A stretch of 25,837 nucleotides of DNA, from the IMG/VR virus record IMGVR_UViG_3300023443_000722, positions 1 to 25,837 of that record; one strand, given 5' to 3'. The notes under the pieces were generated by a model that saw only the letters and a program-made list of their open reading frames with translations, did no database searches and was not told the origin of the DNA. Position 1 is the stretch's first letter. Each line of letters begins with the position of its first letter. The stretch is from a virus. Shown here piece by piece: positions 2,969-24,347 of the stretch. Both the position numbers and the translations under genes were made by a program.

Positions 2969-3553
2969 ATGACGAACGAAGCTCTACAGCGTCGGTGGGG
3001 ATATTCGACGCGTGAGTTGGAGGATGCTCGAGAGCGCGTTTCGGGTATCTTCTCATACCAGCCCGGCCGAATGGTCAAGCGGGGCGGTATCTGGCAGAAG
3101 GAGCACACTGGTGAGATCGTGCACCAGCACAACCTGGTGGTCAACGAGGGTCTGAACCACGCCCTCGAAACTGTGATCAACGCGGGAACGCCGATCACCG
3201 TTTGGTTCCTCACGGGGTTCACGGACAACGTGACTCCGCTGGCCACGCACACGGCAGCGGCTCCGGGAGTGACCGAGATCACCACCACGGACGTCGCCGA
3301 AGCTGTCCGTGAGACCTACAATGCCAACACGGCAGCGGGTCAGTCGATCGACAACGTGGCCGGACCTGTGGCTACGTACATCGCCGATCAGACATTCACG
3401 ATGTTTGGAATGTTCTTGATCGGTGGAGGCACTTCCGCCTTCGGTAACACGGCGGGAACCCTCTGGGCCTCGACTCTGTTGACGCCTTCCAGGCCGATGG
3501 TTGCTCTGGACAGCCTCGACATGACTTACACGTTCCCGGCTTCCGCTACTTAA
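2969..3553 (+). CDS. Conserved virion protein, probably highly expressed
   Basis: 194 residues with a GGGGAGG ribosome binding site eight bases before the ATG. Residues 1-40 are charged (RRWGYSTRELEDARERV). An HNLVVNEGLNHALETV segment follows at about residue 51, then TVWFLTGF. The rest is beta-rich and ends MTYTFPASAT. The VVNEGLNH...WFLG-like pattern with a later QTFTMFGMFLIGG and GTLWAS recurs in conserved phage structural proteins of unresolved function. All nine isoleucine codons are ATC, against 4 of 13 in the preceding gene. This matches the codon style of the capsid and tail tube genes and suggests a high-copy virion component. It could be a decoration or appendage subunit. Confidence 0.55.
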   Translation: MTNEALQRRWGYSTRELEDARERVSGIFSYQPGRMVKRGGIWQKEHTGEIVHQHNLVVNEGLNHALETVINAGTPITVWFLTGFTDNVTPLATHTAAAPGVTEITTTDVAEAVRETYNANTAAGQSIDNVAGPVATYIADQTFTMFGMFLIGGGTSAFGNTAGTLWASTLLTPSRPMVALDSLDMTYTFPASAT

Positions 3554-3585: not shown

Positions 3586-3873
3586 ATGGAGCAGACTACA
3601 CTGCGCCGTAAGGCGTATCCGAGTCGGCAAGTTGCTCGGAGGGCCTCTTTGGAGAGGCAGGTCAGTCATTTCGAGTTGTCTATCGAGAGGATTGAGGCTG
3701 CCATCCAGAAGAGGTTGGAGGAAGGTCAGGCTGAGCTGGCCAACTTCCAGCACGAACTCGAGGAAGCCAAAGCTCGTTTGGCTGCGTTTGAGGAAGCACC
3801 TCCTCTCGAGGAACATCCGGCTGAAGCAGAGTCGGCTGACGACGACGCCGTGGAGGAAGACTCTACCCCGTAG
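3586..3873 (+). CDS. Small coiled-coil protein with acidic tail
   Basis: 95 residues. Residues about 20-70 are a continuous heptad-rich helix (LERQVSHFELSIERIEAA, then LEEGQAELANFQHELEEA and ARLAAF), followed by a disordered acidic, Pro-containing tail (EEAPPLEEHPAEAESADDDAVEE). The start codon is ATG preceded by ACGGAGTACGGAAT. The gene lies between the 194-residue virion protein and the giant repeat protein. A trimerisation or scaffold-like helper for the appendage is possible but is inference; no family is recognised. Confidence 0.5.
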   Translation: MEQTTLRRKAYPSRQVARRASLERQVSHFELSIERIEAAIQKRLEEGQAELANFQHELEEAKARLAAFEEAPPLEEHPAEAESADDDAVEEDSTP

Positions 3874-3890
3874 TCGAGGAGTGAGTCTGA

Positions 3891-6800
3891 ATGGCTCGAC
3901 ACGGTAGGGGGATAGTATTTAGGCCAGCTAACCGGCTATCTGTAGTATTGTTGGCCGGGGTTGCTGCCTTCGAAACTGATGGCATCACTTTTGGTGATGT
4001 TCCCTTTACCCAAATCACTGCTTCGGCAGTAGAATCAGATGGAATTGCCTTCGGGTCCGTAGCGGACGCGAGGGCTAATTTCATAGTAGCAGAATCAGAC
4101 GGGATAGCGTTCGGCTCAGTAGCAGCTGCGGGATTGAATCTTACGGCTGATGAGTCTGACGGTATAGCTTTTGGATCCGTTGCTGATACTGCGATTACAT
4201 TCGGTGCTTCCGAAACCGACGGTATAGCTTTTGGATCAGTAGCTGCGGCATTCATGCAGTTTATGGTTGCCGAGTCTGATGGAATCTCATTTGGCTCCGT
4301 AGCAGCTACTCAGCTGGATGCTCTAGCGTCTGAGTCCGACGGGATAGCCTTTGGATCTGTAGCCGCAGCGGGTCTCAACTTTGCAGCCTCCGAAACTGAT
4401 GGTATAGCCTTTGGATCAGTAGCTCTGGCAATAGCTGTCTTCCAAGCCTCCGAGTCTGACGGTATCACGTTCGCTGATGCTGCTGTTGCAGAGGCTGACT
4501 TTCAAGCATCTGAATCCGATGGCATTACCTTTGGATCAGTAGCATTTACTCAGATAACCGCTACGGCAGCGGAGACAGACGGCATTACCTTTGGATCAGT
4601 AGCTCTGGGGGTAGCTACCTCCCAGGCTGTTGAGACAGATGGAATCGCTTTTGGATCAGTAGCCCTGGCAGTTGCTGTTTTCCAAGCTTCTGAATCAGAT
4701 GGGATTGGATTTGGAGATGTTGAGGCGGTAGAAGCTGATTTCCAGGCCTCTGAATCCGATGGGATAACCTTCGGGTCAGTAGCGTTTACTCAGATAACTG
4801 CTACAGCAGCTGAGTCTGACGGGATCACCTTTGGATCTGTCTCTCTGGCTGTAGCCGTCTTCCAAGCATCTGAATCTGACGGGATCACCTTTGGTTCCGT
4901 AGCAGCTACTCAGTTGGATGCTCAAGCCTCTGAGTCCGATGGAATAGCTTTCGGCTCCATTGCAGCTACTGCCTTTACTGGTGCTGGGGCTGATGAGACA
5001 GACGGCATTGCTTTCGGATCAGTCGCACTAGCGGTAGCTGTATTCCAAGCGGTTGAGACAGACGGAATAGCCTTCGGGTCTGTGTCTCTTGCGAGGGCTG
5101 ACTTCCAGGCTTCCGAGGCAGACGGAATAGCCTTCGGGTCAGTGGCTGCTGCGTTTGCTTCTCCGTTTATAGGGGCCGAGGCAGACGGAATAGCCTTCGG
5201 GTCTGTAGCAGCAGCTGTTCTGACAGCATTTGTGTCAGAGACAGACGGAATAGCCTTCGGGTCTGTAGCAGCTACTCAGTTGGATGCTCAGGCAGCCGAG
5301 TCTGATGGCATTGCTTTCGGTTCTGTTGCGTTCACTAACCTTGTCTCTGCAGCAGCTGAGTCTGATGGAATAGCATTTGGATCGGTGGCATTAGCGGTTG
5401 CTGTCTTCCAGGCTTCCGAGTCCGATGGTATTACCTTTGCTGATACTGCTGTTGCTGAGGCAGATTTCCAAGCTTCCGAGTCAGACGGGATAGCTTTCGG
5501 GTCAGTCGCTTTCACGAATATTGTAGCTACGGCTGCTGAATCGGACGGAATAGGATTTGGCTCTGTAGCAGCTACTCAGCTGAATGCTGAGGTCGCTGAG
5601 GCTGATGGCATAGCCTTTGGCTCGGTGGCTGTCGCGATAGGTACCTTCCAGGCCACAGAAACCAATGGAATTGCCTTTGGATCGGTGGCTGCCGCGATAG
5701 CCACCTTCCAAGCCTCTGAATCAGACGGTATAGCTTTTGGCTCAGTTGCCTCTACAGTCTTTATTCCGGGAGTTGGTGCGGAAGAGACTGACGGCATAGC
5801 CTTCGGGTCAATAGCGCTAGCAGTTGCTGTCTTCCAAGCGATTGAATCAGACGGAATTACCTTTGGTTCCGTGGCAGCTACGACTGCTGTCTTCCAAGCC
5901 TCCGAGTCTGACGGGATAGGATTTGGGGATACTGAGGCTGCTGAAGCTGACTTCCAGGCTTCCGAATCTGACGGAATAGCTTTCGGATCTGTTGCAGTCG
6001 CTGTTCTGACTGGGGCAGTTTCAGAGACTGACGGAATAGCTTTCGGATCTGTAGCCTTTACCCAGATAGTGGCGACAGCGGCTGAATCAGATGGCATAGC
6101 CTTCGGGTCAGTTGCGTCCTTCGTATTCACACCGGGAACTGGGGCAGACGAGACTGACGGCATAGCCTTCGGGTCAGTTGCTCTAGCGGTAGCTGTCTTC
6201 CAAGTTTCTGAATCAGATGGAATAGCGTTCGGATCAGTCGCAGCTACAACTGCTGTCTTCCAAGCCTCCGAGTCTGACGGAATTGGCTTTGGAGATGCTG
6301 AGGTTGCTGAGGCAGACTTCCAAGCTTCTGAATCCGACGGGATTACCTTCGGGTCAGTCGCTGCTACGAGGTTGGATGCTCAAGCTTCCGAATCGGATGG
6401 CATAGCATTCGGATCAGTAGCTGATACTCAGATTACAGCTGCTTCGTCAGAGTCTGACGGGATTGGTCTTGGGGATACTCCGAACACCATCGGCTCATTT
6501 ATTGCATCCGAGTCTGATGGAATAGGCTTTGGTGACACTGCGGTAGGTGCTCCTACCTTCATAGCTTCTGAATCAGACGGGATATCGTTCGGGTCAGTAG
6601 CGGACGCTCAGATCACGTTTGCTGCTGTTGAGTCAGACGGGATAGAGTTTGGAAGTGTCGCAGCCACTCAGATTACTGCAGCTGCTTCTGAGTCCGATGG
6701 TGTTACGTTTGCGGATACACCTCTGACTGTAGCGGTGTTCCAAGCGTCTGAGTCCGATGGTGTTACGTTCGACGATATTGCTTTGGCTGTTCCGATGGGT

Positions 6801-7148
6801 GGGGCGGAAGAGACAGATGGAATAGCATTTGGATCAGTTGCTGACGCTCAGATCACCTTTGCTGCTGTTGAGTCTGATGGGGTCACCTTTGCTGACGTCC
6901 CATTCACATCTATCATCTTCCAAGCCTCAGAGTCCGATGGAATAGGCTTTGGAGATGTTCCTGCTGCTGGTCTAGACTTCTTCGCCTCAGAGACTGACGG
7001 GATTACGTTTGGAGACATACCTCTTACAGTACTCAATTTCATTCCCTTCGCTCCTGACATTGTGGAAGTGACTGTGAATATTCACAGGTTGGAGGAGGCG
7101 GGGATTGTTAACATAACGAGAGTGATAAGTTCAACGGTGGAGATATAG
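3891..7148 (+). CDS. Giant 51-repeat fibrous protein (ESDGIAFGSVA repeats)
   Basis: 1085 residues. After a 27-residue N-terminus (basic start, then the hydrophobic run SVVLLAGVAAF), residues 28-1053 are 51 tandem units, all 20 residues long except for two of 21 and two of 22. A 32-residue tail ends VISSTVEI. The consensus is E-[S/T]-D-G-I-[A/T/G]-F-G-[S/D]-V-A followed by a variable nine-residue half, often ALAVAVFQAS or ATQLDAQAS. There are no cysteines or aromatic clusters beyond the invariant Phe. Regular spacing with D-G turns suits a beta-solenoid or beta-helical rod, giving a long thin fibre. The ATG follows GAGGAGTGAGTCTGA. Synonymous sites differ widely between units, so the protein motif is under selection. 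Context suggests a neck, head or tail appendage; function is unknown. Confidence 0.72.
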   Translation: MARHGRGIVFRPANRLSVVLLAGVAAFETDGITFGDVPFTQITASAVESDGIAFGSVADARANFIVAESDGIAFGSVAAAGLNLTADESDGIAFGSVADTAITFGASETDGIAFGSVAAAFMQFMVAESDGISFGSVAATQLDALASESDGIAFGSVAAAGLNFAASETDGIAFGSVALAIAVFQASESDGITFADAAVAEADFQASESDGITFGSVAFTQITATAAETDGITFGSVALGVATSQAVETDGIAFGSVALAVAVFQASESDGIGFGDVEAVEADFQASESDGITFGSVAFTQITATAAESDGITFGSVSLAVAVFQASESDGITFGSVAATQLDAQASESDGIAFGSIAATAFTGAGADETDGIAFGSVALAVAVFQAVETDGIAFGSVSLARADFQASEADGIAFGSVAAAFASPFIGAEADGIAFGSVAAAVLTAFVSETDGIAFGSVAATQLDAQAAESDGIAFGSVAFTNLVSAAAESDGIAFGSVALAVAVFQASESDGITFADTAVAEADFQASESDGIAFGSVAFTNIVATAAESDGIGFGSVAATQLNAEVAEADGIAFGSVAVAIGTFQATETNGIAFGSVAAAIATFQASESDGIAFGSVASTVFIPGVGAEETDGIAFGSIALAVAVFQAIESDGITFGSVAATTAVFQASESDGIGFGDTEAAEADFQASESDGIAFGSVAVAVLTGAVSETDGIAFGSVAFTQIVATAAESDGIAFGSVASFVFTPGTGADETDGIAFGSVALAVAVFQVSESDGIAFGSVAATTAVFQASESDGIGFGDAEVAEADFQASESDGITFGSVAATRLDAQASESDGIAFGSVADTQITAASSESDGIGLGDTPNTIGSFIASESDGIGFGDTAVGAPTFIASESDGISFGSVADAQITFAAVESDGIEFGSVAATQITAAASESDGVTFADTPLTVAVFQASESDGVTFDDIALAVPMGGAEETDGIAFGSVADAQITFAAVESDGVTFADVPFTSIIFQASESDGIGFGDVPAAGLDFFASETDGITFGDIPLTVLNFIPFAPDIVEVTVNIHRLEEAGIVNITRVISSTVEI
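3972..7049 (+). repeat. Coding tandem repeat array, 51 units of about 60 bases
   Basis: The 60-base unit encodes the 20-residue repeat of the fibrous protein. Units 17 and 20 have one extra codon, and units 30 and 36 have two. DNA identity is generally low at third positions, but the 20-mer GACGGAATAGCCTTCGGGTC recurs exactly at 5061, 5121, 5184 and 5244 (units 19-22), which marks a recently homogenised patch. Larger blocks also recur: units 30-33 match units 36-39, including the two-codon insertion. Confidence 0.9.
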
Positions 7149-7149
7149 C

Positions 7150-7494
7150 ATGCCTCACATAAGAGAGTTTCAAAAAGGAGTTATCGGAGGGATTCTCCGT
7201 ATAGTTGTCACGGATGATGGAGAGGTGTTCGATCTGGGGCCTGCCACTACTCACGATTTCGTGTTGAAGGATCCTTTTGGGGCGGAAAAGACAGTTAATG
7301 CGATCTTTACGCCTCTACCGGATGGGGCAGGAGATGGATCAGATGGTTCGCTGGACTTTGTGACAGATGATGCGGGGGACTTCGATGTGGGTGGCTCTTG
7401 GGAGGCTCAAGTAGATCTGGTACATCCTGCGACGATACCTCCGTTCTCGGGGCTGTCTTCCATTACAAGATTCAGAGTCAGGGATAATCTCTAA
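7150..7494 (+). CDS. BppU N-terminal-like domain protein
   Basis: 114 residues with ribosome binding site GGTGGAG eight bases upstream of the ATG. The single domain reads GGILRIVVTDDGEVFDLGPA, then DFVLKDPFGAEKTV, DGSLDFVTDDAGDFDVGGSWEAQV and SSITRFRVRDNL. This order (DxxGxxxDLxxA, a P-x-G loop, a D-G-x-x-x-x turn, G-x-W-x-x-Q and a final F-x-V) is that of the Ig-like N-terminal domain of baseplate upper proteins (BppU_N family), which anchors receptor-binding parts to the virion in lactococcal phages. Here it stands alone, directly after the giant repeat protein, so it may serve as that protein's adaptor or cap. Its stop overlaps the next start (TAATG). Confidence 0.6.
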   Translation: MPHIREFQKGVIGGILRIVVTDDGEVFDLGPATTHDFVLKDPFGAEKTVNAIFTPLPDGAGDGSDGSLDFVTDDAGDFDVGGSWEAQVDLVHPATIPPFSGLSSITRFRVRDNL

Positions 7495-7919
7495 TGGCCT
7501 TTCTGAAACCAGGTGATTATCTGACCAAAGGCCTTCCGGGAGAACGCTCCGATGATTCTATTATGGTCACGGAGGAGTCTCTTCGATTTGTGAAGGTTAG
7601 AGGGGATGATGTGATCTTCACTAAGGATTCTCTTGATAATTACGACCCTGTCACTGCTGATGGGGATGAGATCATAGTGGAGATTCCGGGCAGAGCATTG
7701 AGAATGCCCTTGAGTGCAACAGATACCAACAGATATAGGGAGTTGGGACTAGTTCAATCCAAGAGTCCGAAGCTCTTGTTCATCCCTACAACTGAAGGTG
7801 AGTTGCCTGAACTGGAGATGACAGTGGTGTGGCAAGGTGAGACTCTCAATGTGAGAGACGTGGCTCCCTTGGCTCCGAATGGAAGACTGATCTGTGCTCA
7901 CGTTATTGTAGGAGAATAA
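7494..7919 (+). CDS. Head closure (stopper) protein
   Basis: 141 residues. The N-terminal part is specific to this phage (KPGDYLTKGLPGERSDDS). The C-terminal half (KLLFIPTTEGELPELEMT, then VVWQGETLNVRDVAPLAPNG and a hydrophobic end HVIVG) follows the beta-barrel pattern of SPP1 gp16/HK97-type head-closure proteins, where a W/V-x-G-x-x-Y/L-x-V-x-D-V-x-P strand pair precedes the C-terminal strand. Position supports it: a gp10-like gene follows and a tail terminator comes next. In most phages this gene touches the adaptor gene; here a six-gene cassette separates them. The call is mostly from synteny plus fold pattern. Confidence 0.62.
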   Translation: MAFLKPGDYLTKGLPGERSDDSIMVTEESLRFVKVRGDDVIFTKDSLDNYDPVTADGDEIIVEIPGRALRMPLSATDTNRYRELGLVQSKSPKLLFIPTTEGELPELEMTVVWQGETLNVRDVAPLAPNGRLICAHVIVGE

Positions 7920-7920
7920 T

Positions 7921-8292
7921 GTGACGAGGTTTGGTGATGATCTTGGCCGGTTCAACAAGAAGTTGCAGAGGAAACCGGAGGAGTTCATTGACCTAGCAAC
8001 AGACGAAGTATTTAATTCGATAGTTAATGGGTCGGCTTTAACTGGAGCTCCGGGGCAGCCAGTTCTGTCAGGGGCACTGAAGCGATCTTGGAGAAAAAGG
8101 AGAACTGGGCCGGGGTCGAGTCAAGTTGTTACGGACTCTCCTTACGCTAGGACGATAGAGAATTTGGTTGGAAGGTTCGGCACTATTACGATTAGATCTG
8201 CAGTTGGGGGAGGGCATTCAGTGAAGATGACACAAGCGGGTTGGGATAACATAATCCGTAAGGTGCTTCAAGATATAGCGAACACTCAATAA
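7921..8292 (+). CDS. HK97 gp10-like neck/tail-completion protein
   Basis: 123 residues, starting at GTG 7921 (the ATG two bases earlier runs straight into a stop). Ribosome binding site AGGAGA lies just upstream. The family hallmarks are in order: an N-terminal helix (DDLGRFNKKLQRKPEEFIDL) and TGAPGQPVLSGALKRSW, where the P-V-x-x-G-x-L-x-x-S/W motif is typical. SPYARTIENLVG follows (the P-Y-A-x-x-x-E signature), then a C-terminal GWDNIIRKVLQDI helix. Proteins of this family act between the head-closure ring and the tail terminator during joining. It overlaps the next start by TAATG. Confidence 0.85.
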   Translation: MTRFGDDLGRFNKKLQRKPEEFIDLATDEVFNSIVNGSALTGAPGQPVLSGALKRSWRKRRTGPGSSQVVTDSPYARTIENLVGRFGTITIRSAVGGGHSVKMTQAGWDNIIRKVLQDIANTQ

Positions 8293-9020
8293 TGCCTATT
8301 AGCCACACTCAGAATGTTGAAGCTCTAAGGGCGCGTTTACTTACCTTAGTTGTTGTGGCGATGGTAGATGAGTCAATGTCAGTGTCAAAAAGAGATTATA
8401 CTAGGGCGGGGGGCTCTTTCAAGGAAGATGGATTTGAGGTGGGGATGGAGGTGACAGGGTCTGGATTCTCAGTGCCAACGAACAACGATGTATCTATCAT
8501 CAGACAGGTGAAGGATACGACGTTGAGGGTCAATAGGACCTTAACAAATGAAGCATTGGGGGCAGGTAAGTCATTAAACGTATTCATTCCAGGAGGACAG
8601 GCTTGGGAAAATCGGAAGTTTGATCCGGAAGGGGAGAATCCCTTCTTTGAGGAGCAGTACATCCCAGGTGCTCAGGAGTTCATCACTCTGGGGAAGAACG
8701 CTGAGGTAGAGATCACTCCTATGTACTCGATTGGAGTGGAAGTGAAAGAGGGGACAGGGGCTGAAGCTGCAAGGCGATATGCTGATGCAATACTGGAACT
8801 CTTTTCTCCTTCGGAGGCAATGTTCTTGAGGAACGGAGATTGCTTGCGAGTGAGAGGTGACACTGGGCCTTTTCCAGGGCAACTGTTAAAATCAGGTCCG
8901 GGAAAGGTGGTGATACCGGTGACTATCCCCTTGAGATTGAGAACACAGAATGTGATTGATCCCGCTTTCCCTGTCACGGGGACTGGGTGGTCTGATGGCT
9001 TTGACGAGGGATTTGGCTAA
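8292..9020 (+). CDS. Tail terminator with inserted tail-tube-type domain
   Basis: 242 residues. The core is a tail terminator of the DUF4128/gp17-like type: an N-terminal helix (VEALRARLLTL), a strand pair (EVEITPMYSIGVEVKEG), the helix GAEAARRYADAILELFSP, then LRVRGDTGPFPGQLL and a final VVIPVTIPLRLRT. Such proteins cap the finished tail tube and bind the head side. Residues about 31-99 interrupt the core with a small beta domain (AGGSFKEDGFEVGMEVTGSG, then TNNDVSIIRQVKDTTLRV). It resembles residues 103-178 of the tail tube protein encoded two genes downstream. The last 15 residues (GTGWSDGFDEGFG) are a low-complexity tail. Confidence 0.75.
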   Translation: MPISHTQNVEALRARLLTLVVVAMVDESMSVSKRDYTRAGGSFKEDGFEVGMEVTGSGFSVPTNNDVSIIRQVKDTTLRVNRTLTNEALGAGKSLNVFIPGGQAWENRKFDPEGENPFFEEQYIPGAQEFITLGKNAEVEITPMYSIGVEVKEGTGAEAARRYADAILELFSPSEAMFLRNGDCLRVRGDTGPFPGQLLKSGPGKVVIPVTIPLRLRTQNVIDPAFPVTGTGWSDGFDEGFG

Positions 9021-16674: not shown

Positions 16675-19212
16675 ATGGCTGGCGAGGTTATCTGGCTGGC
16701 CGTCTTGGAGGTTTTTGATACGGTCTCAGGGGTAGAATCCACACTCTACTTCTCGAATGATGCTATCACATCTGGACCGGCAGAGTCTCCTCCGAATCAA
16801 TTCTTTGATCCCCGAATATCTACTCCTTGTAAGATTCGAAGGAGTATGTTTGCTCCGGACACGACCTTTGGGCGTAGTCAGGTAGGTTTTGGAGATTTGG
16901 TCTTGGCTAACGATGACGGGGGACTGGACTTCCTGAATGATTTCAGTTTTGACGGGTACAGGATTACTCAATATCGTGGAGTGAGAGGAGAAGGCGGAAA
17001 GTTCATCAAGGTACTATCAGCCATCATGGATCAAACTGTGATGACTCGTGACGAATTTACGGTTAAGTTGAAGGATAGGCAGACTGAGGTTGAGATAGCA
17101 TTCCAACCTACGAAATATTCAGGTGGAAATGTACTGCCTGATGGGTTGGAAGGTGTGTCAGATCTGGTCGGGAAGCCTAAGCCGATTCTTTATGGGAAGG
17201 TGAGGAACATAGCACCTCCTTTTGTGAATACCTCTAAGCTGATTTACCAGATTAGCGACGGCCCGATTGAGACAATCGAGGCTGTCTACGACTCTGGCAT
17301 TGACTTGTCAAAGTCACCCCGATTGTGGATTCAGGAAACGACTCCAATCTCACAACAGATTAACGCGATTGCTTCTGGAGTGGGTAGTGCGTTTGCATCT
17401 CCGAGGAGGTTTGTAGCGGTTGGTAATCTCGGGGAAATCATAACCTCAGAGGATGGTGCGACCTGGACGTCAAGGGCTAATCCATTTGAGGTGACGGGAC
17501 CGAATCTCTTTGCTGATAACATCAATTGGGTTGCATTTAGTGAAGATCAGGGGAGATGGTTAGCAGTAGGGGATGGGATTGGATCCTCTCCAAGAGGGGG
17601 GCTAGCCACAAGTGATGATGGAATTACCTGGACGCAAAGGACAAGTCCTTTTGTGGCAGGGACTCTGATATTCAGTGCGGTGTATGGGAATACGATTACA
17701 GCTGGGCCAGTGTGGATCATTGGGGCATCTGGGGGTCAGGTGGCAACTTCTCCTGACGCAGAGAACTGGACTGTTAGAGCTACTGACCCGACATCTTTTC
17801 CTGTGTTAGCTCTCATATTTGGGATCGGATTGTTTGTTAAGGTTCTGGGGTCGGTTGGTGAGCAGAAGCTCCAATCTAGTACGGATGGGATTACCTGGAC
17901 AAATAGAAATGCGGGTGTAGATCCGGAGATACTCTTGAGTAGAGGATTCTTTGGTAAAGGGGCTTTTTTAGTGGGAGGGAAGGATACCTCCACAGCTGAG
18001 AGTCCTGATGAAGTCATGACATCTTTTTCTAGGGATGGGATTGCTTGGACTCCACAGCCTCAGAATCAAGGACTGCTCATCAGTGATATCTCCTATAGTG
18101 AGGCTATGGGTAAATGGTTGATATCAGGAGAGAATGAAATTAGTGGAGTCACGAGTCAGATTCTGTCTTCACCCACTGGATTACCTCCTTGGGAAGTGAA
18201 TGATCCTTTGTTCTTCGCAGATGTCACTAGGGGAATTGGGGTGGGTCCTGATATTACTGTCGTTGGAGGTGATTCAGGGAAGATAGCGAGGATAGTTGCT
18301 GCGGCAGAGCTTCCTTACACAACTGAAGAGGAATTATTGAATGACGGTTTAGCTCCTGCTCCTGGGACGTACCGAGCTTTCTTGGGAGGAGGGCTCTTTA
18401 GGTTGGGGTCCCCTGCTTTTGGACAGATTACTGTAGACGCAACTGAGGGGGCAGCGATAGCAGATAGGAGAGCATCTACTCTCTTTGCAAATGTGATCTT
18501 GCAATCAGATTTGATCCTGGAAGATATCAGGCAGGAAGATTTGCCTGCCCTTGATGCAGTTGTTCCTTTCGAGATGGGTTTTTGGTCAGGTACTAGAGAG
18601 ATACTGTCATCTTTGGTTCTGAATCAGATTGCAGAGAGTGCGGGAGCTTGGTGGGGAGTTGATGCGGTGGGGTTCTTTAGGATAGAGCAGTTGATCAATC
18701 CAGAGATCATTCCTCTTTTCAGAACATTTGTTGCTGAGGACATGGTTGAGTGGCTTAGAAGAGGGTTGGTTCAGGATGTGGGAAGAGGGATACCACCGTT
18801 TAGAACCATCGTGAGGTATAGAAGGAACTACACTGTTCAGGATAAAGCTCTTGCTCAGGGTGTGAGTGATTCGAGAAGAGCTGATTTGGGAAAGGAGTTT
18901 GACGACGAGACAGTCCTCAATTCTAATGTTCAGATCGACCACTTGCTGTCTAGAGAGCAAACTTTCACTTCGTTGATCTTTAATCAGGATGATGCCAGGG
19001 CATCAGCAATTAGATTTCAAGGTCTTCGGGGAGTGAAGAGAAATCCTTTCGAGTTTGCTGTGGCGTGTAAGGGGAATGATGGTCTGGATATAGGCATTGG
19101 GGTTGAGATATTTCATGATCGCTTTGGTTTGGAGAATGGACTGAGGACCGTTATTATCGGATACGATCCTGATCCTCCGAATGACACCATCAAATTGACT
19201 GTGTGGGGATAG
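16675..19212 (+). CDS. Tail tip hub protein with inserted beta-propeller
   Basis: 845 residues. Residues 1-230 form a hub-like part: IWLAVLEVFDTVSGVESTLY, GFGDLVLANDDGGLDFLNDF, then GKPKPILYGKVRNIAPP. Residues about 240-540 are five or six repeated blades with Asp-box-like S-x-D-G-x-T-W motifs (SEDGATW at 258, SDDGITW at 313, SPDAENW at 359, STDGITW at 402, SRDGIAW at 452), each after a strand such as RFVAVG, RWLAVGD, VWIIGA or KWLISG. This is a BNR/sialidase-type propeller. After it, the hub part resumes with GGLFRLGSPAFGQITVDATE and a C-terminal half with INPEIIPLFRTF and RYRRNYTV. No sialidase active-site residues can be assigned, so carbohydrate binding is more likely than catalysis. The start follows the previous stop by two bases and has a weak ribosome binding site. 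Confidence 0.72.
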   Translation: MAGEVIWLAVLEVFDTVSGVESTLYFSNDAITSGPAESPPNQFFDPRISTPCKIRRSMFAPDTTFGRSQVGFGDLVLANDDGGLDFLNDFSFDGYRITQYRGVRGEGGKFIKVLSAIMDQTVMTRDEFTVKLKDRQTEVEIAFQPTKYSGGNVLPDGLEGVSDLVGKPKPILYGKVRNIAPPFVNTSKLIYQISDGPIETIEAVYDSGIDLSKSPRLWIQETTPISQQINAIASGVGSAFASPRRFVAVGNLGEIITSEDGATWTSRANPFEVTGPNLFADNINWVAFSEDQGRWLAVGDGIGSSPRGGLATSDDGITWTQRTSPFVAGTLIFSAVYGNTITAGPVWIIGASGGQVATSPDAENWTVRATDPTSFPVLALIFGIGLFVKVLGSVGEQKLQSSTDGITWTNRNAGVDPEILLSRGFFGKGAFLVGGKDTSTAESPDEVMTSFSRDGIAWTPQPQNQGLLISDISYSEAMGKWLISGENEISGVTSQILSSPTGLPPWEVNDPLFFADVTRGIGVGPDITVVGGDSGKIARIVAAAELPYTTEEELLNDGLAPAPGTYRAFLGGGLFRLGSPAFGQITVDATEGAAIADRRASTLFANVILQSDLILEDIRQEDLPALDAVVPFEMGFWSGTREILSSLVLNQIAESAGAWWGVDAVGFFRIEQLINPEIIPLFRTFVAEDMVEWLRRGLVQDVGRGIPPFRTIVRYRRNYTVQDKALAQGVSDSRRADLGKEFDDETVLNSNVQIDHLLSREQTFTSLIFNQDDARASAIRFQGLRGVKRNPFEFAVACKGNDGLDIGIGVEIFHDRFGLENGLRTVIIGYDPDPPNDTIKLTVWG

Positions 19213-20571: not shown

Positions 20572-23460
20572 GGTTACCAACCTCCATTTACTTCAAGGTC
20601 TTTCGCTCCCGTCACTAACCTGGTGGGAGAGTTTGGAGTTAACATCACGACGGAGGCGTTGAGCTACATCCTCCCGGCCAACTTTGATTCTGAGAGTTGG
20701 TCGATGGTGTTCTGGTTCGTCCCGAATTGGGCGAACACGGATGGTCTCCGCCATGTCATTGCGCAGATCCGTCTTTCAGATGCGGATAACGTGACTATTG
20801 AGAAGGATGCTGCAGGAGATCTGCTTATAACCTATGTGGGTTTCTCTCAAGTAACAGAGGTGACTAGAACGGTTGCCTTCTCTGCTGGCACTCCGGTGTT
20901 TGTAGGGATAGGAAAAGATGGGAAAGGAAATGTAGCACCTTCATTCAATAGGAACTACGTCACCATTGCGGCGGACCAAAATGGAGATGGCTCACTTGAG
21001 TATGTCTTCAAGGGTCCATTCGGATTCCCGCCAGATATCAATCGCATGGAACAAGGAACTTACACCCTTTATGTGGGATCAGACTTTGAATTCAATGATC
21101 CTCTAGATGGGACTGTTTCCATTCAAATTACAAATAACCAGGATCAAGCCGCTATTGGTGACAGATTCAATGGTGGTGATGGGTTGGCCTTGGTGGGTGA
21201 GGATGGTTGGATAGGGCGTTGGTGTGAGTTCCTGGTGATCTCTATTTCTGCAGAAGCTTCTGGGAATGTTCGGGCTGACACTCGAGAGGGAGCTCTGGAT
21301 ATAATGGATGTGACTGATCCGGGGACAGGGAAGTTGGTCTTCGATCAGGCCGATGAGGATTTCGTTGACTTTGGAAACACTGAGATTTTTAATGGTCTAG
21401 CCGCAGGAACATTCTTCTTTGACTTCGAGAATAAGAACACTTCTCAAGGGAAGATCCTAGCGGGTAGGTTCCCGATTAACCCCAATACTAGAAGACAGTG
21501 GCTGGCTTCTTTTGCTGGATTAGGAGAGTTGGATTTTCAGATCAACATTGACCCAAGTCCTGGGGGAGAGAACGGTAATATCCACTCCCAAACTAGATAC
21601 GCTCAGTTGGGCCAGAGGATATGTTGGATTGTTAGGTACGATGGGTCAGAGCCGGATGATATAGGACCGACAGGAAAGGTAAGGTTCTTTTGGGCTGTTT
21701 ACTCTTCTACAGGTGCGATCGGTGTACCGTTCCCAGCTCCGCTGAATCCTGAGAGGATCTGGACTCCCTTCATAGAGATTCCGGCCTCTGATCTGTTAAA
21801 TAATGGGACAGGTCCTGTACCAACTACGTTCAAGAGTGCGATCAGTGCTACCAACTATAGATGGTCCTCTTTTGATGATCAGCAAGTCAGCGAAATGACA
21901 GGGGACTTCCACGATTTCCGCCAGAATCTAACCAGAGCCCTTGGTGTAGATGAGATTCTAGCATTGAATCCGAGCGAGTTTGTTAGGAGTCAATGGACTC
22001 ATCGTTGGGGCATGGTTCTGAATGCTGCGGGAGAGGTTCCGGATGATTATGGATCGGGCCTTGATGGGAGTATGGAGACTGTTGGGGGAGATGGTCCGGA
22101 TGAGGCCAGTGATGACCGGAGCTTCCGCCATGGACAGTTCCCTGAAGTGATCGAAGAAGGTGTCTTTGCCTTCGATGGAGTGGATGACCTTATTCTCACC
22201 TCAGATCCGGGGGATGTGGCTGATATTGAATCCACTCGTCTTTCTCTTCCTGGGGATGGGAATGCTTTGGGAGGGAATACAGCCACCACTCCTAATGACA
22301 CTGCTTTTGATGTGTTGGTTGGAGACTTGGACCTACGAATTGATATGAAAAGGGACAAGTACTCGGATGCAGAGAATCAGTTCAACTCTCAATTATTGAT
22401 AGGTAAGGCTAGTGGTGGTCCTAACGATAGGACCTTCACGTGGTCATTTGCAGGCTTCATGACACAGAGAATGATCGTCTATGACACGACAGGAAGCTCT
22501 GTAGGAGATTGGACATTCGTAGAATTCCTTCCGAAGACGTTGGATGGTAAACGTCTCTGGTTTAGGGTAACAGCTGAGTTAGATGATGGGGCAGGGAATA
22601 GAGTAGCGAAATTCTATTACTCGGAGACTTGGGATGGAGTCTCGGCGGACGATGGTCAGACTTGGATCCTTCATGAGACTGTGTCTTTCGTTGGAGTGAT
22701 TGCGAATCCATTGGATGCGAGTCCGGGTTCGAATATGTCAATTGGGGCTCATTCGGGCAATCAATTTGCTAGGCTGAGGGCTGACGTATTTCGAGCTCAG
22801 GTTCGGGACGGGATCGATGGGACGATTGTTTACGATCCTAACTTTGAGGCCGAGGCCCCTGGCACGACATCTTTCTCAGAGGATGCGAATGCTCTGACTG
22901 TGACTATCAACCAGAATGGAGATCCTCAGGCTGAGATCACCAACGGATTGCAGAGGGTAACCTGGGGATGGTGGGGACGGATCGGTAGGATCGATGCTGG
23001 ACCGTTGGAAACTATCTTCGGGAGATTTGATGGATCTGATAACCAATTCCGAATAGTTCGCAATGGAGCCGACATTCGGGTTGAGATCTCTAGTGGAGGG
23101 GCATCGGAATCTGATTTTGCTGACTTCACCTTGGGGATGCAGCCAGGAGAGAAGTGGAAGTTCATAGTAACCTACGTTGGATCGGGAGCTTATGGACATG
23201 CTCAGCTTGATCTGCCGAGAGGAGTTAGGGTTACTCTTTACGCTTATCTCTTTGACCCAATAACAGGGTTGTGGGGATCCCGTCAGGAGCCTACTCCTGT
23301 GGTCACTGGAATTATTCCTCAAGCTTTAGTTCCTTCGGCTCTGGGCTATGTCTGGGCTAATTCATCCTTCCTGGGTGAGGTTGACGAGACTAGGATCTGG
23401 AATGATCGAGTTCTGGATAGGGTAGAAGCTGACCAGGAAACAGTGTACCAGACATCATGA
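20569..23460 (+). CDS. Large tail adhesin with several LamG/concanavalin-like domains
   Basis: About 963 residues from the TTG at 20569. Several beta-sandwich domains of the LamG/concanavalin type are visible. The first begins TEALSYILPANFDSESW and has FWFVPNW; the second begins KLVFDQADEDFVDFGN and has ICWIVRYDGSEPDDIG; the third begins FAFDGVDDLILTSDP and has LWFRVTAELDDGAGNRVAKF; the last begins LQRVTWGWWGRIGRID and has WKFIVTYVGSG. The domain type, glycine/Asp turns and absence of catalytic motifs fit carbohydrate or surface binding. Residues near DNA 22735-22940 (IGAHSG, then APGTTSFSEDANALTVTI) are shared with the 396-residue protein downstream. It probably forms the main receptor-binding appendage. 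The end overlaps the next start by ATGA. Confidence 0.72.
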   Translation: MGYQPPFTSRSFAPVTNLVGEFGVNITTEALSYILPANFDSESWSMVFWFVPNWANTDGLRHVIAQIRLSDADNVTIEKDAAGDLLITYVGFSQVTEVTRTVAFSAGTPVFVGIGKDGKGNVAPSFNRNYVTIAADQNGDGSLEYVFKGPFGFPPDINRMEQGTYTLYVGSDFEFNDPLDGTVSIQITNNQDQAAIGDRFNGGDGLALVGEDGWIGRWCEFLVISISAEASGNVRADTREGALDIMDVTDPGTGKLVFDQADEDFVDFGNTEIFNGLAAGTFFFDFENKNTSQGKILAGRFPINPNTRRQWLASFAGLGELDFQINIDPSPGGENGNIHSQTRYAQLGQRICWIVRYDGSEPDDIGPTGKVRFFWAVYSSTGAIGVPFPAPLNPERIWTPFIEIPASDLLNNGTGPVPTTFKSAISATNYRWSSFDDQQVSEMTGDFHDFRQNLTRALGVDEILALNPSEFVRSQWTHRWGMVLNAAGEVPDDYGSGLDGSMETVGGDGPDEASDDRSFRHGQFPEVIEEGVFAFDGVDDLILTSDPGDVADIESTRLSLPGDGNALGGNTATTPNDTAFDVLVGDLDLRIDMKRDKYSDAENQFNSQLLIGKASGGPNDRTFTWSFAGFMTQRMIVYDTTGSSVGDWTFVEFLPKTLDGKRLWFRVTAELDDGAGNRVAKFYYSETWDGVSADDGQTWILHETVSFVGVIANPLDASPGSNMSIGAHSGNQFARLRADVFRAQVRDGIDGTIVYDPNFEAEAPGTTSFSEDANALTVTINQNGDPQAEITNGLQRVTWGWWGRIGRIDAGPLETIFGRFDGSDNQFRIVRNGADIRVEISSGGASESDFADFTLGMQPGEKWKFIVTYVGSGAYGHAQLDLPRGVRVTLYAYLFDPITGLWGSRQEPTPVVTGIIPQALVPSALGYVWANSSFLGEVDETRIWNDRVLDRVEADQETVYQTS

Positions 23461-24347
23461 CTATCCCTCCGAGCAACCGTTGGAATTTCAGGAAGTCGGA
23501 AGAGGTGTCTCCACTTTTAGCTCCATCTATCATTATCCCGCCCCCTCCACCACCTCCCCCTCCTACTCTTGTGTCAGGAGATTTGATTGACTTGGGAGGC
23601 GGAGAGTTTGCAGGAGCAACCAATTTCTCAGAGTTCTCTGTGGCGGCAGGATTGCCCTCCGGGATCACGCAATTTGGCATCAGCTCCACATCTCCGGTAA
23701 CGCACGCAATCGCCAATGACTCGATTGAGGGCAACTACTTCTCGATGGACGGTCATGACCCGACTGCTCGGGCCTTTGGTTATGGCTATGATGCCTTCGA
23801 CAATGTCTTTGAGTTTGGTGAAATTCTCGCCAGGATTCACACAGTCTTTGATGACTCGAACAATGGTCGTAGAAGCATTGGACCAGGCGCAAGAATCTCA
23901 GGGTTGGTTGGTCGTCCTGAGGTCAGTCCGGACTTTGATTGCCTCTGTCAGGGACTGAGCCTAGCCAGCCCAACCTTCCTAGACAACGGACTCTATGTCG
24001 ATGCTGGCAGCACATCTTTGCCGTCGAGTGGCGCCGTCCAAGAGATTTTCCAGACAGGACAATGGATGTGGTTGCGTTTGCGAATAGTCGAGAATGGGGC
24101 TGATGATGATTGGATCGTCACTGCATGGTATGGGTCCCAATCGGATCCTCTCGATGCTGGTGGACAACCTAGCCCAGATTCAGTAAATCTGTCTCGGTTC
24201 CGGACCATCTTTGCGATTGATGCTCTTGGATGGGCGTGTGGAGAATTTTGTGATGGGGCTGAGCAGAGGATTTCATACTTGTCATTCTCGACTGATCCGA
24301 CAGTAACTCCCCCACCTCTCCCTGATACCGTGATTGGAGGTCCCTGA
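23457..24347 (+). CDS. LamG-like adhesin with nine-proline linker
   Basis: 296 residues, starting in an ATGA overlap. After a short N-terminus, residues 28-36 are nine consecutive prolines (23538-23564), encoded by mixed Pro codons, forming a rigid spacer before a single LamG-like domain. The domain shows FEFGEILARIHTVFDDSNNG and WMWLRLRIVENGADDDWIV, then AWYGSQSDPLDAGG and a final RISYLSFSTDPTV, followed by a second Pro-rich end. Four cysteines occur (DCLCQG and ACGEFCD) and could pair. Such polyproline runs normally need EF-P for translation. The role is inferred as host-surface binding. Confidence 0.62.
   Translation: MTIPPSNRWNFRKSEEVSPLLAPSIIIPPPPPPPPPTLVSGDLIDLGGGEFAGATNFSEFSVAAGLPSGITQFGISSTSPVTHAIANDSIEGNYFSMDGHDPTARAFGYGYDAFDNVFEFGEILARIHTVFDDSNNGRRSIGPGARISGLVGRPEVSPDFDCLCQGLSLASPTFLDNGLYVDAGSTSLPSSGAVQEIFQTGQWMWLRLRIVENGADDDWIVTAWYGSQSDPLDAGGQPSPDSVNLSRFRTIFAIDALGWACGEFCDGAEQRISYLSFSTDPTVTPPPLPDTVIGGP

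Follow-up and report, generated by a model that had tools for sequence, protein, structure and literature searches.

A Long Array of 20-Residue Repeats in a Viral Head–Neck Gene Block: A Candidate Shaft for an Accessory Neck Appendage

Introduction

What is a protein composed almost entirely of one short repeated unit doing among the head and neck genes of a virus? The question is raised by an open reading frame of 1,085 amino acids (positions 3891–7148, + strand, ATG start, preceded at nine bases by a ribosome-binding-like GAGGAG at 3876–3881) in a 25.8-kb viral record, that of a tailed phage known without culture. The whole stretch of this record, hereafter the window, was analyzed. A sequence-only reading had proposed that this ORF encodes a long virion fiber, possibly an undescribed phage appendage.

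Neck appendages are known in a few model phages but are poorly understood. In TP901-1 the neck passage structure (NPS) is described as non-essential fibers at the portal vertex (PMC4493119), and the NPS of many 936 phages carries carbohydrate-binding modules (PMC6669499). Other fibrous projections of the collar or neck are the whiskers of T4 (gp wac), the collar spikes of XM1 (gp40), and the pre-neck appendage of phi29 (gp12) (PMC10491603).

Results

An Array of 51 Diverged Units

The repeat motif starts 51 times, from residue 28 to residue 1034, at spacings of 20 residues (46 cases), 21 (two), or 22 (two), and the last unit ends at residue 1053. The number of units and the limits of the array are exactly those proposed from the sequence alone. 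The unit length of 20 residues that had been given for all of them applies to 47, whereas two units have 21 residues and two have 22. Residues 28–1053 (positions 3972–7049) are indeed made of units throughout, and this description can be refined by the two segments that flank the array: a 27-residue leader (3891–3971) and a 32-residue C-terminal tail (7050–7145). From the polarity of related proteins (see below), the leader would be the distal tip and the tail the anchor, the latter occupying the slot held by two head-closure (Hc1) domains in the nearest relatives, L007 and L008.

The half of the unit described as near-invariant, E-[S/T]-D-G-[I/V]-x-F, deserves the name: E1, G4, and I/V5 are found in 51/51 units, D3 and F7 in 50/51, and S/T2 in 48/51, with Ala in the other three. 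The pattern E[STA][DN]G[IV]x[FL] is found at 51 places in the ORF and at no more than one in any of 2,000 residue shuffles. In their DNA the units differ, with a mean identity of 57% and 87% for the best pair, and all four Gly codons are used across units at the invariant G4. Among between-unit codon differences, the synonymous share is 69% in the conserved half and 27% in the variable half. Hence, the motif has been kept by selection, and the units are not fresh copies of one another. The array is old and grew by duplication, and blocks duplicated as four or as six units can be discerned in it to this day. An assembly error is unlikely, since a second contig (L001, IMGVR_UViG_3300023223_001592) contains a near-identical copy of the 3′ half of the array. 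The − strand has long open frames with a repeat pattern of their own at 3863–4255 and 5576–6163; these were rejected as genes, as the repetitive codons of the + strand account for them.

Relation to Named Families

No family library searched assigns a function to the repeat unit. Searches of Pfam, NCBIfam, and PHROGs gave no named family that fits the array, and PDB chains yielded no significant match, bearing out the earlier impression that it belongs to no named family. One candidate was the pentapeptide repeat family PF13599 (Pentapeptide_4), because a coil of 20 residues would equal four pentapeptides and the full ORF scores 52 bits, above the Pfam cut-off of 38 bits. This score is an artefact of summing: the thirds of the array reach only 19.5–24.8 bits, and the L007 and L008 proteins are unmatched. 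The five-residue periodicity A(D/N)LXX also fails, as position 2 is Ser/Thr and position 12 is half polar in L007 and L008. Matches to DUF5111, Ku_bact, TRIP13, and phrog_12495 (a family of unknown function) were likewise discarded, since each adds up stretches that are singly below threshold in a query full of repeats.

Predicted Fold

The 20-residue unit reads as two β-strands. The earlier reading had suggested predicting the structure of consecutive units as a way of telling a structural fiber from a disordered chain. Eight units were submitted to AlphaFold with a gap-free pseudo-alignment built from the protein's own repeats and the repeat segments of L007 and L008, and the result was an all-β model of moderate confidence (pLDDT 71.7, pTM 0.68), with no stretch below 50. 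In the model the predicted strand pattern repeats regularly with the unit, and the sequence shows a matching pattern. Foldseek found no match to solved structures at E ≤ 0.001, the best having E = 0.25; the neighbors below significance are mostly β-solenoids, ice-binding proteins included, and FapC and CsgA also appear. The array is thus predicted, at the level of a model, to be a β-solenoid; with 51 coils of about 0.48 nm, the rod would be about 25 nm long (24.5 nm). A model of the array together with Hc1 had a pLDDT of 41 and was discarded.

The variable half of the unit carries a pattern that, independently of the model, fits such a fold. In the window, polar residues make up 0–4% at positions 15, 17, and 19, versus 53–68% at positions 14, 16, and 18. 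Residue volumes at positions 15 and 17 are anticorrelated (r = −0.58 in the window, −0.68 pooled), a large residue going with a small one in either order (A-F, L-A, I-A); none of 5,000 permutations was as extreme, although these ignore the relatedness of the units. At stacked positions of neighboring units, no correlation of size was found.

These data bear on the possibility that the protein is a disordered or elastomeric low-complexity spacer, as its composition might suggest: Ala, Gly, Ser, and Thr account for 547 of the 1,085 residues, and the chain is strongly acidic (151 acidic and 9 basic residues, with no Lys, Cys, Trp, or Tyr). Alternating polarity and compensation between positions 15 and 17 would not be expected of a disordered chain. 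Together with the fixed 20-residue register, the near-invariant I/V5 and F7, the β prediction, and the synonymous excess in the conserved half, they make a spacer of this kind very improbable.

A Gene of the Head–Neck Block

The array gene was thought to lie among virion genes, and this holds on both sides, all of the following being on the + strand. Upstream are the C-terminal part of the major head protein (phrog_752, 3–467), the head–tail adaptor (phrog_442 and PF05135, 474–1088), and three genes with no assigned function, of which the last encodes a 194-residue protein of phrog_8123 (2969–3553). A 95-residue protein (3586–3873), judged from its sequence to be a probable coiled coil, immediately precedes the array. 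After the array come a 114-residue protein (7150–7494), Hc1 (phrog_161, 7494–7919), the tail completion or Neck1 protein (7921–8292), and the tail terminator (phrog_179, 8292–9020), followed by a major-tail-like protein, chaperone genes, and the tape measure. The array gene is therefore inside the head–neck block, one gene before Hc1, as would be expected of a gene for a neck appendage.

Two genes farther downstream in the window have features of their own. The tail protein at 16675–19212 (phrog_8917) contains, in its middle part, DGxTWT-like repeats similar to sortilin/BNR propellers, and part of it matches a gene of another phage annotated as photosystem II assembly factor. Close to its start, the protein at 23457–24347 has nine prolines in a row (IIPPPPPPPPPTL); it has no family match.

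The same neighborhood speaks to another possibility, that of a functional amyloid: a released subunit like curli or FapC, polymerizing outside the virion, for example in the lysate or in a biofilm. Like CsgA, FapC, and the β-solenoids of FHA/HpmA type, the array is predicted to stack strand-turn-strand coils, and some of these proteins are among its weak structural neighbors. It differs from them in having no significant structural or sequence match: the Ser/Gln/Asn ladder of curli and FapC is absent from the unit consensus, and there is no Pfam match. Moreover, the gene lies within the head–neck block, relatives fuse the array to a head-closure protein (see below), and no secretion genes were recognized in the window by Pfam or PHROGs. 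An amyloid of this kind is hardly credible.

Close Relatives Fuse the Array to Hc1

A search with the phrog_8123 protein led to two related but distinct viruses, L007 and L008 (L009 is of the L008 type again). Their ORFs share the 20-residue unit, in the form E-S/T-A/S-G-I-x-F-G-S, with 37 units in L007 and 29 in L008, so that the repeat number varies among relatives, as had been anticipated. In both, the array ORF immediately follows the coiled-coil gene or the place corresponding to it. The coiled-coil gene of L007 (L007:3136–3384) and its Neck1 gene are orthologous to those of the window (36% and 37% identity, respectively). With a repeat unit common to all and orthologous flanking genes, the array genes of L007 and L008 are, on sequence grounds, positional orthologs of that of the window.

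In L007 and L008 the array continues in the same chain into about 250 residues that correspond to two tandem Hc1 domains. The phrog_161 profile matches this C-terminal part of L007 in two stretches (E = 3.8 × 10−8), and both halves of the relatives' C-terminal part align to the separate Hc1 of the window. A search of the whole records (70 kb for L008) found no phrog_161 match elsewhere in L007 or L008; the profile match and the position among neck genes identify these C-terminal parts as Hc1. The window array itself contains no Hc1 domain and is not fused, its Hc1 being a separate gene. Literature searches turned up no fusion of Hc1 with a long array of repeats, and tblastn against 50,697 phage records gave no homolog of the window array.

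The difference in length between the two relatives has a definite location. In a unit-by-unit alignment, units 15–37 of L007 pair without gaps with units 7–29 of L008. The difference of eight units thus falls N-terminally, in the half remote from Hc1, and is distal.

Because the nearest relatives' arrays are joined to Hc1, the window protein has a fair likelihood of being placed at the neck. The earlier proposal of a virion appendage is thereby supported by context and acquires, with that same likelihood, a site. One may instead suppose that the protein is a β-solenoid fiber or decoration on the surface of the capsid or tail, and that the Hc1 fusion is specific to the lineage of L007 and L008. 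These are, however, the nearest relatives of the window and have orthologous flanking genes, and the window array is just upstream of the genes for Hc1, Neck1, and the tail terminator. More distant relatives, discussed next, offer the capsid or tail some support, which leaves such a site unlikely but still worth considering.

A Wider Family with a Common Partner

Scans for the repeat as a DNA pattern, made independently of phrog_8123, found three further viral arrays, with eight units in L035 and 12 each in L180 and L181 (with a relaxed motif). A profile of the repeats of the window, L007, and L008 matches them with E values of 2 × 10−23 (L035), 4 × 10−29 (L180), and 1.5 × 10−21 (L181). In all three the gene next to the array is phrog_8123, and across the family phrog_8123 adjoins the array gene or is one gene away in 6/6 related viruses. 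The arrays of L035, L180, and L181 are also accompanied by small proteins, with 17–25% identity to the 114-residue protein of the window, a level at which no homology to it could be established. The L180 array is matched by phrog_12240 (E = 6.7 × 10−7), a family whose own function is unassigned; related arrays therefore exist among reference viruses. No homologs of the L180 and L181 arrays were found by tblastn in the 50,697 phage records.

The positions of these genes are where a capsid or tail site finds its support. Neither L035 nor L180 fuses its array to Hc1; in both, the gene has head genes on one side and the adaptor on the other. The L181 cassette comes after the tape measure and the genes of the distal tail. 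In phage KPP25, homologs of phrog_8123 are beside proteins deposited as structural. Given the L181 cassette, at least one relative may carry the array on its tail, and the site of attachment need not be identical across the family.

In L035 a laminin-G (concanavalin-like) domain is N-terminal to the array (PF13385, E = 1.9 × 10−11), and L035, L181, and the window have in common that the chain ends 32–33 residues past the last unit. The Hc1 fusion, the distal laminin-G domain, and the matching C-terminal tails together suggest a polarity common to the family, with the C-terminus anchored and the N-terminus distal, sometimes bearing a binding head.

Both length and polarity are relevant to whether the rods project at all. 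They might lie along the head–tail joint or the capsid and stabilize it as a collar or sheath, their length being set by the object wrapped; the neck of phage Milano is covered by a collar without projecting fibers (PMC10491603), the window chain is very acidic and free of lysine, and the proteins of the window, L007, and L008 have no large distal domain. Arrays of 51, 37, and 29 units, with the L007–L008 change in the distal half, are easier to reconcile with a free end than with a fixed wrap, and the lectin-like domain of L035 is also distal, so that a collar of wrapped rods is improbable.

In the phrog_8123 isolates KPP25, F116, AP1, MetMV, MW202615, and Vibrio VS-ABTNL-3, no homologous array is found beside phrog_8123. 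In the last of these (L183:3951–4937), the gene preceding the phrog_8123 homolog has a different, degenerate repeat (SLGSKS...), so that the place adjoining phrog_8123 may in general be one for variable repeat proteins. A viral ORF with about eight units of S-G-G-I/L-x-F-G-G at 20-residue spacing (L037:1–1212) was left out, its match to the profile (E = 0.001) leaving kinship unproven. A scan of a genome collection for the repeat pattern gave at least 115 stretches; those listed are mostly simple Gly/Val/Phe repeats by checks of periodicity and profile, and none of them comes near the scores of the viral arrays. The best among those listed is an ORF of a genome contig (L153, E = 6 × 10−9).

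Discussion

We consider, with a probability of about 0.6, that the product of the ORF is the shaft of an accessory appendage of the virion, located at or near the head–tail connector: a slender β-solenoid anchored by its C-terminus. On the best reading it would be a whisker or stalk of the neck; other phages are known to have accessory appendages of this kind, but the repeat of which this one is made is apparently undescribed. We infer from gene context, relatives, and models its presence in the virion, its anchoring in the window phage, the length of the rod, and its function.

Each unit would form one coil of two strands. The repeated core would comprise the turn E-S/T-D-G, the strand I5-x-F7, and the inward face of the second strand (positions 15, 17, and 19), with positions 12, 14, 16, and 18 outward and variable; 51 such coils, stacked at about 0.48 nm, would give the rod its length of about 25 nm. 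With its C-terminus the protein would sit on the neck, through two Hc1 domains in the relatives and through the short tail in the window, where the partner, contacted non-covalently, may be the product of the separate Hc1 gene or some other connector protein. The N-terminus would then point away from the neck, and rod length would change through gain or loss of whole units, chiefly in the distal half.

As to function, the most likely role would be that of a whisker or stalk giving weak multivalent contact with the host or the surroundings, or keeping a binding tip clear of the capsid. The lectin-like head of L035 fits adhesion. In the window, L007, and L008 there is only a short distal leader, so the face or the tip of the rod itself would have to act.

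The lactococcal NPS (TP901-1 ORF51 and the 936 group) is a close comparison, being an accessory appendage of the neck or portal vertex whose fibers may end in carbohydrate-binding domains. Its plan is different: an NPS is described as having a BppU-like N-terminal anchor, a coiled-coil shaft, and a C-terminal binding domain, whereas the window protein would have a C-terminal anchor and a shaft of 20-residue β-repeats beginning at residue 28. No NPS-like domain (BppU-like anchor or coiled-coil shaft) was found in the ORF by Pfam, NCBIfam, or PHROGs. T4 gp wac, XM1 gp40, and phi29 gp12 also project from the collar or neck, but their architecture is unlike that of the array, for which the searches of named families and PDB chains showed no sequence relation.

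A more specific arrangement can be put forward tentatively, and we hold it to be doubtful: the head-closure ring would bear a crown of β-solenoid rods whose length evolves by whole 20-residue coils at the free end. With two Hc1 domains per chain in L007 and L008, six chains would make up a ring of twelve positions with six rods. If this were true, the length of an appendage could be read from its gene.

A neck shaft of this type would have several consequences. It would be new, and its repeat family is unnamed in Pfam or NCBIfam. In relatives, gene fusion links the array to the connector; the array also keeps the company of one partner gene in divergent phages, and its length varies in steps of single units. 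This gives a testable rule, that rod length equals the number of units times about 0.48 nm. Such a long and regular predicted β-solenoid may also interest protein engineers. The repeat would also provide a sequence handle with which to find neck fibers in metagenomic phages.
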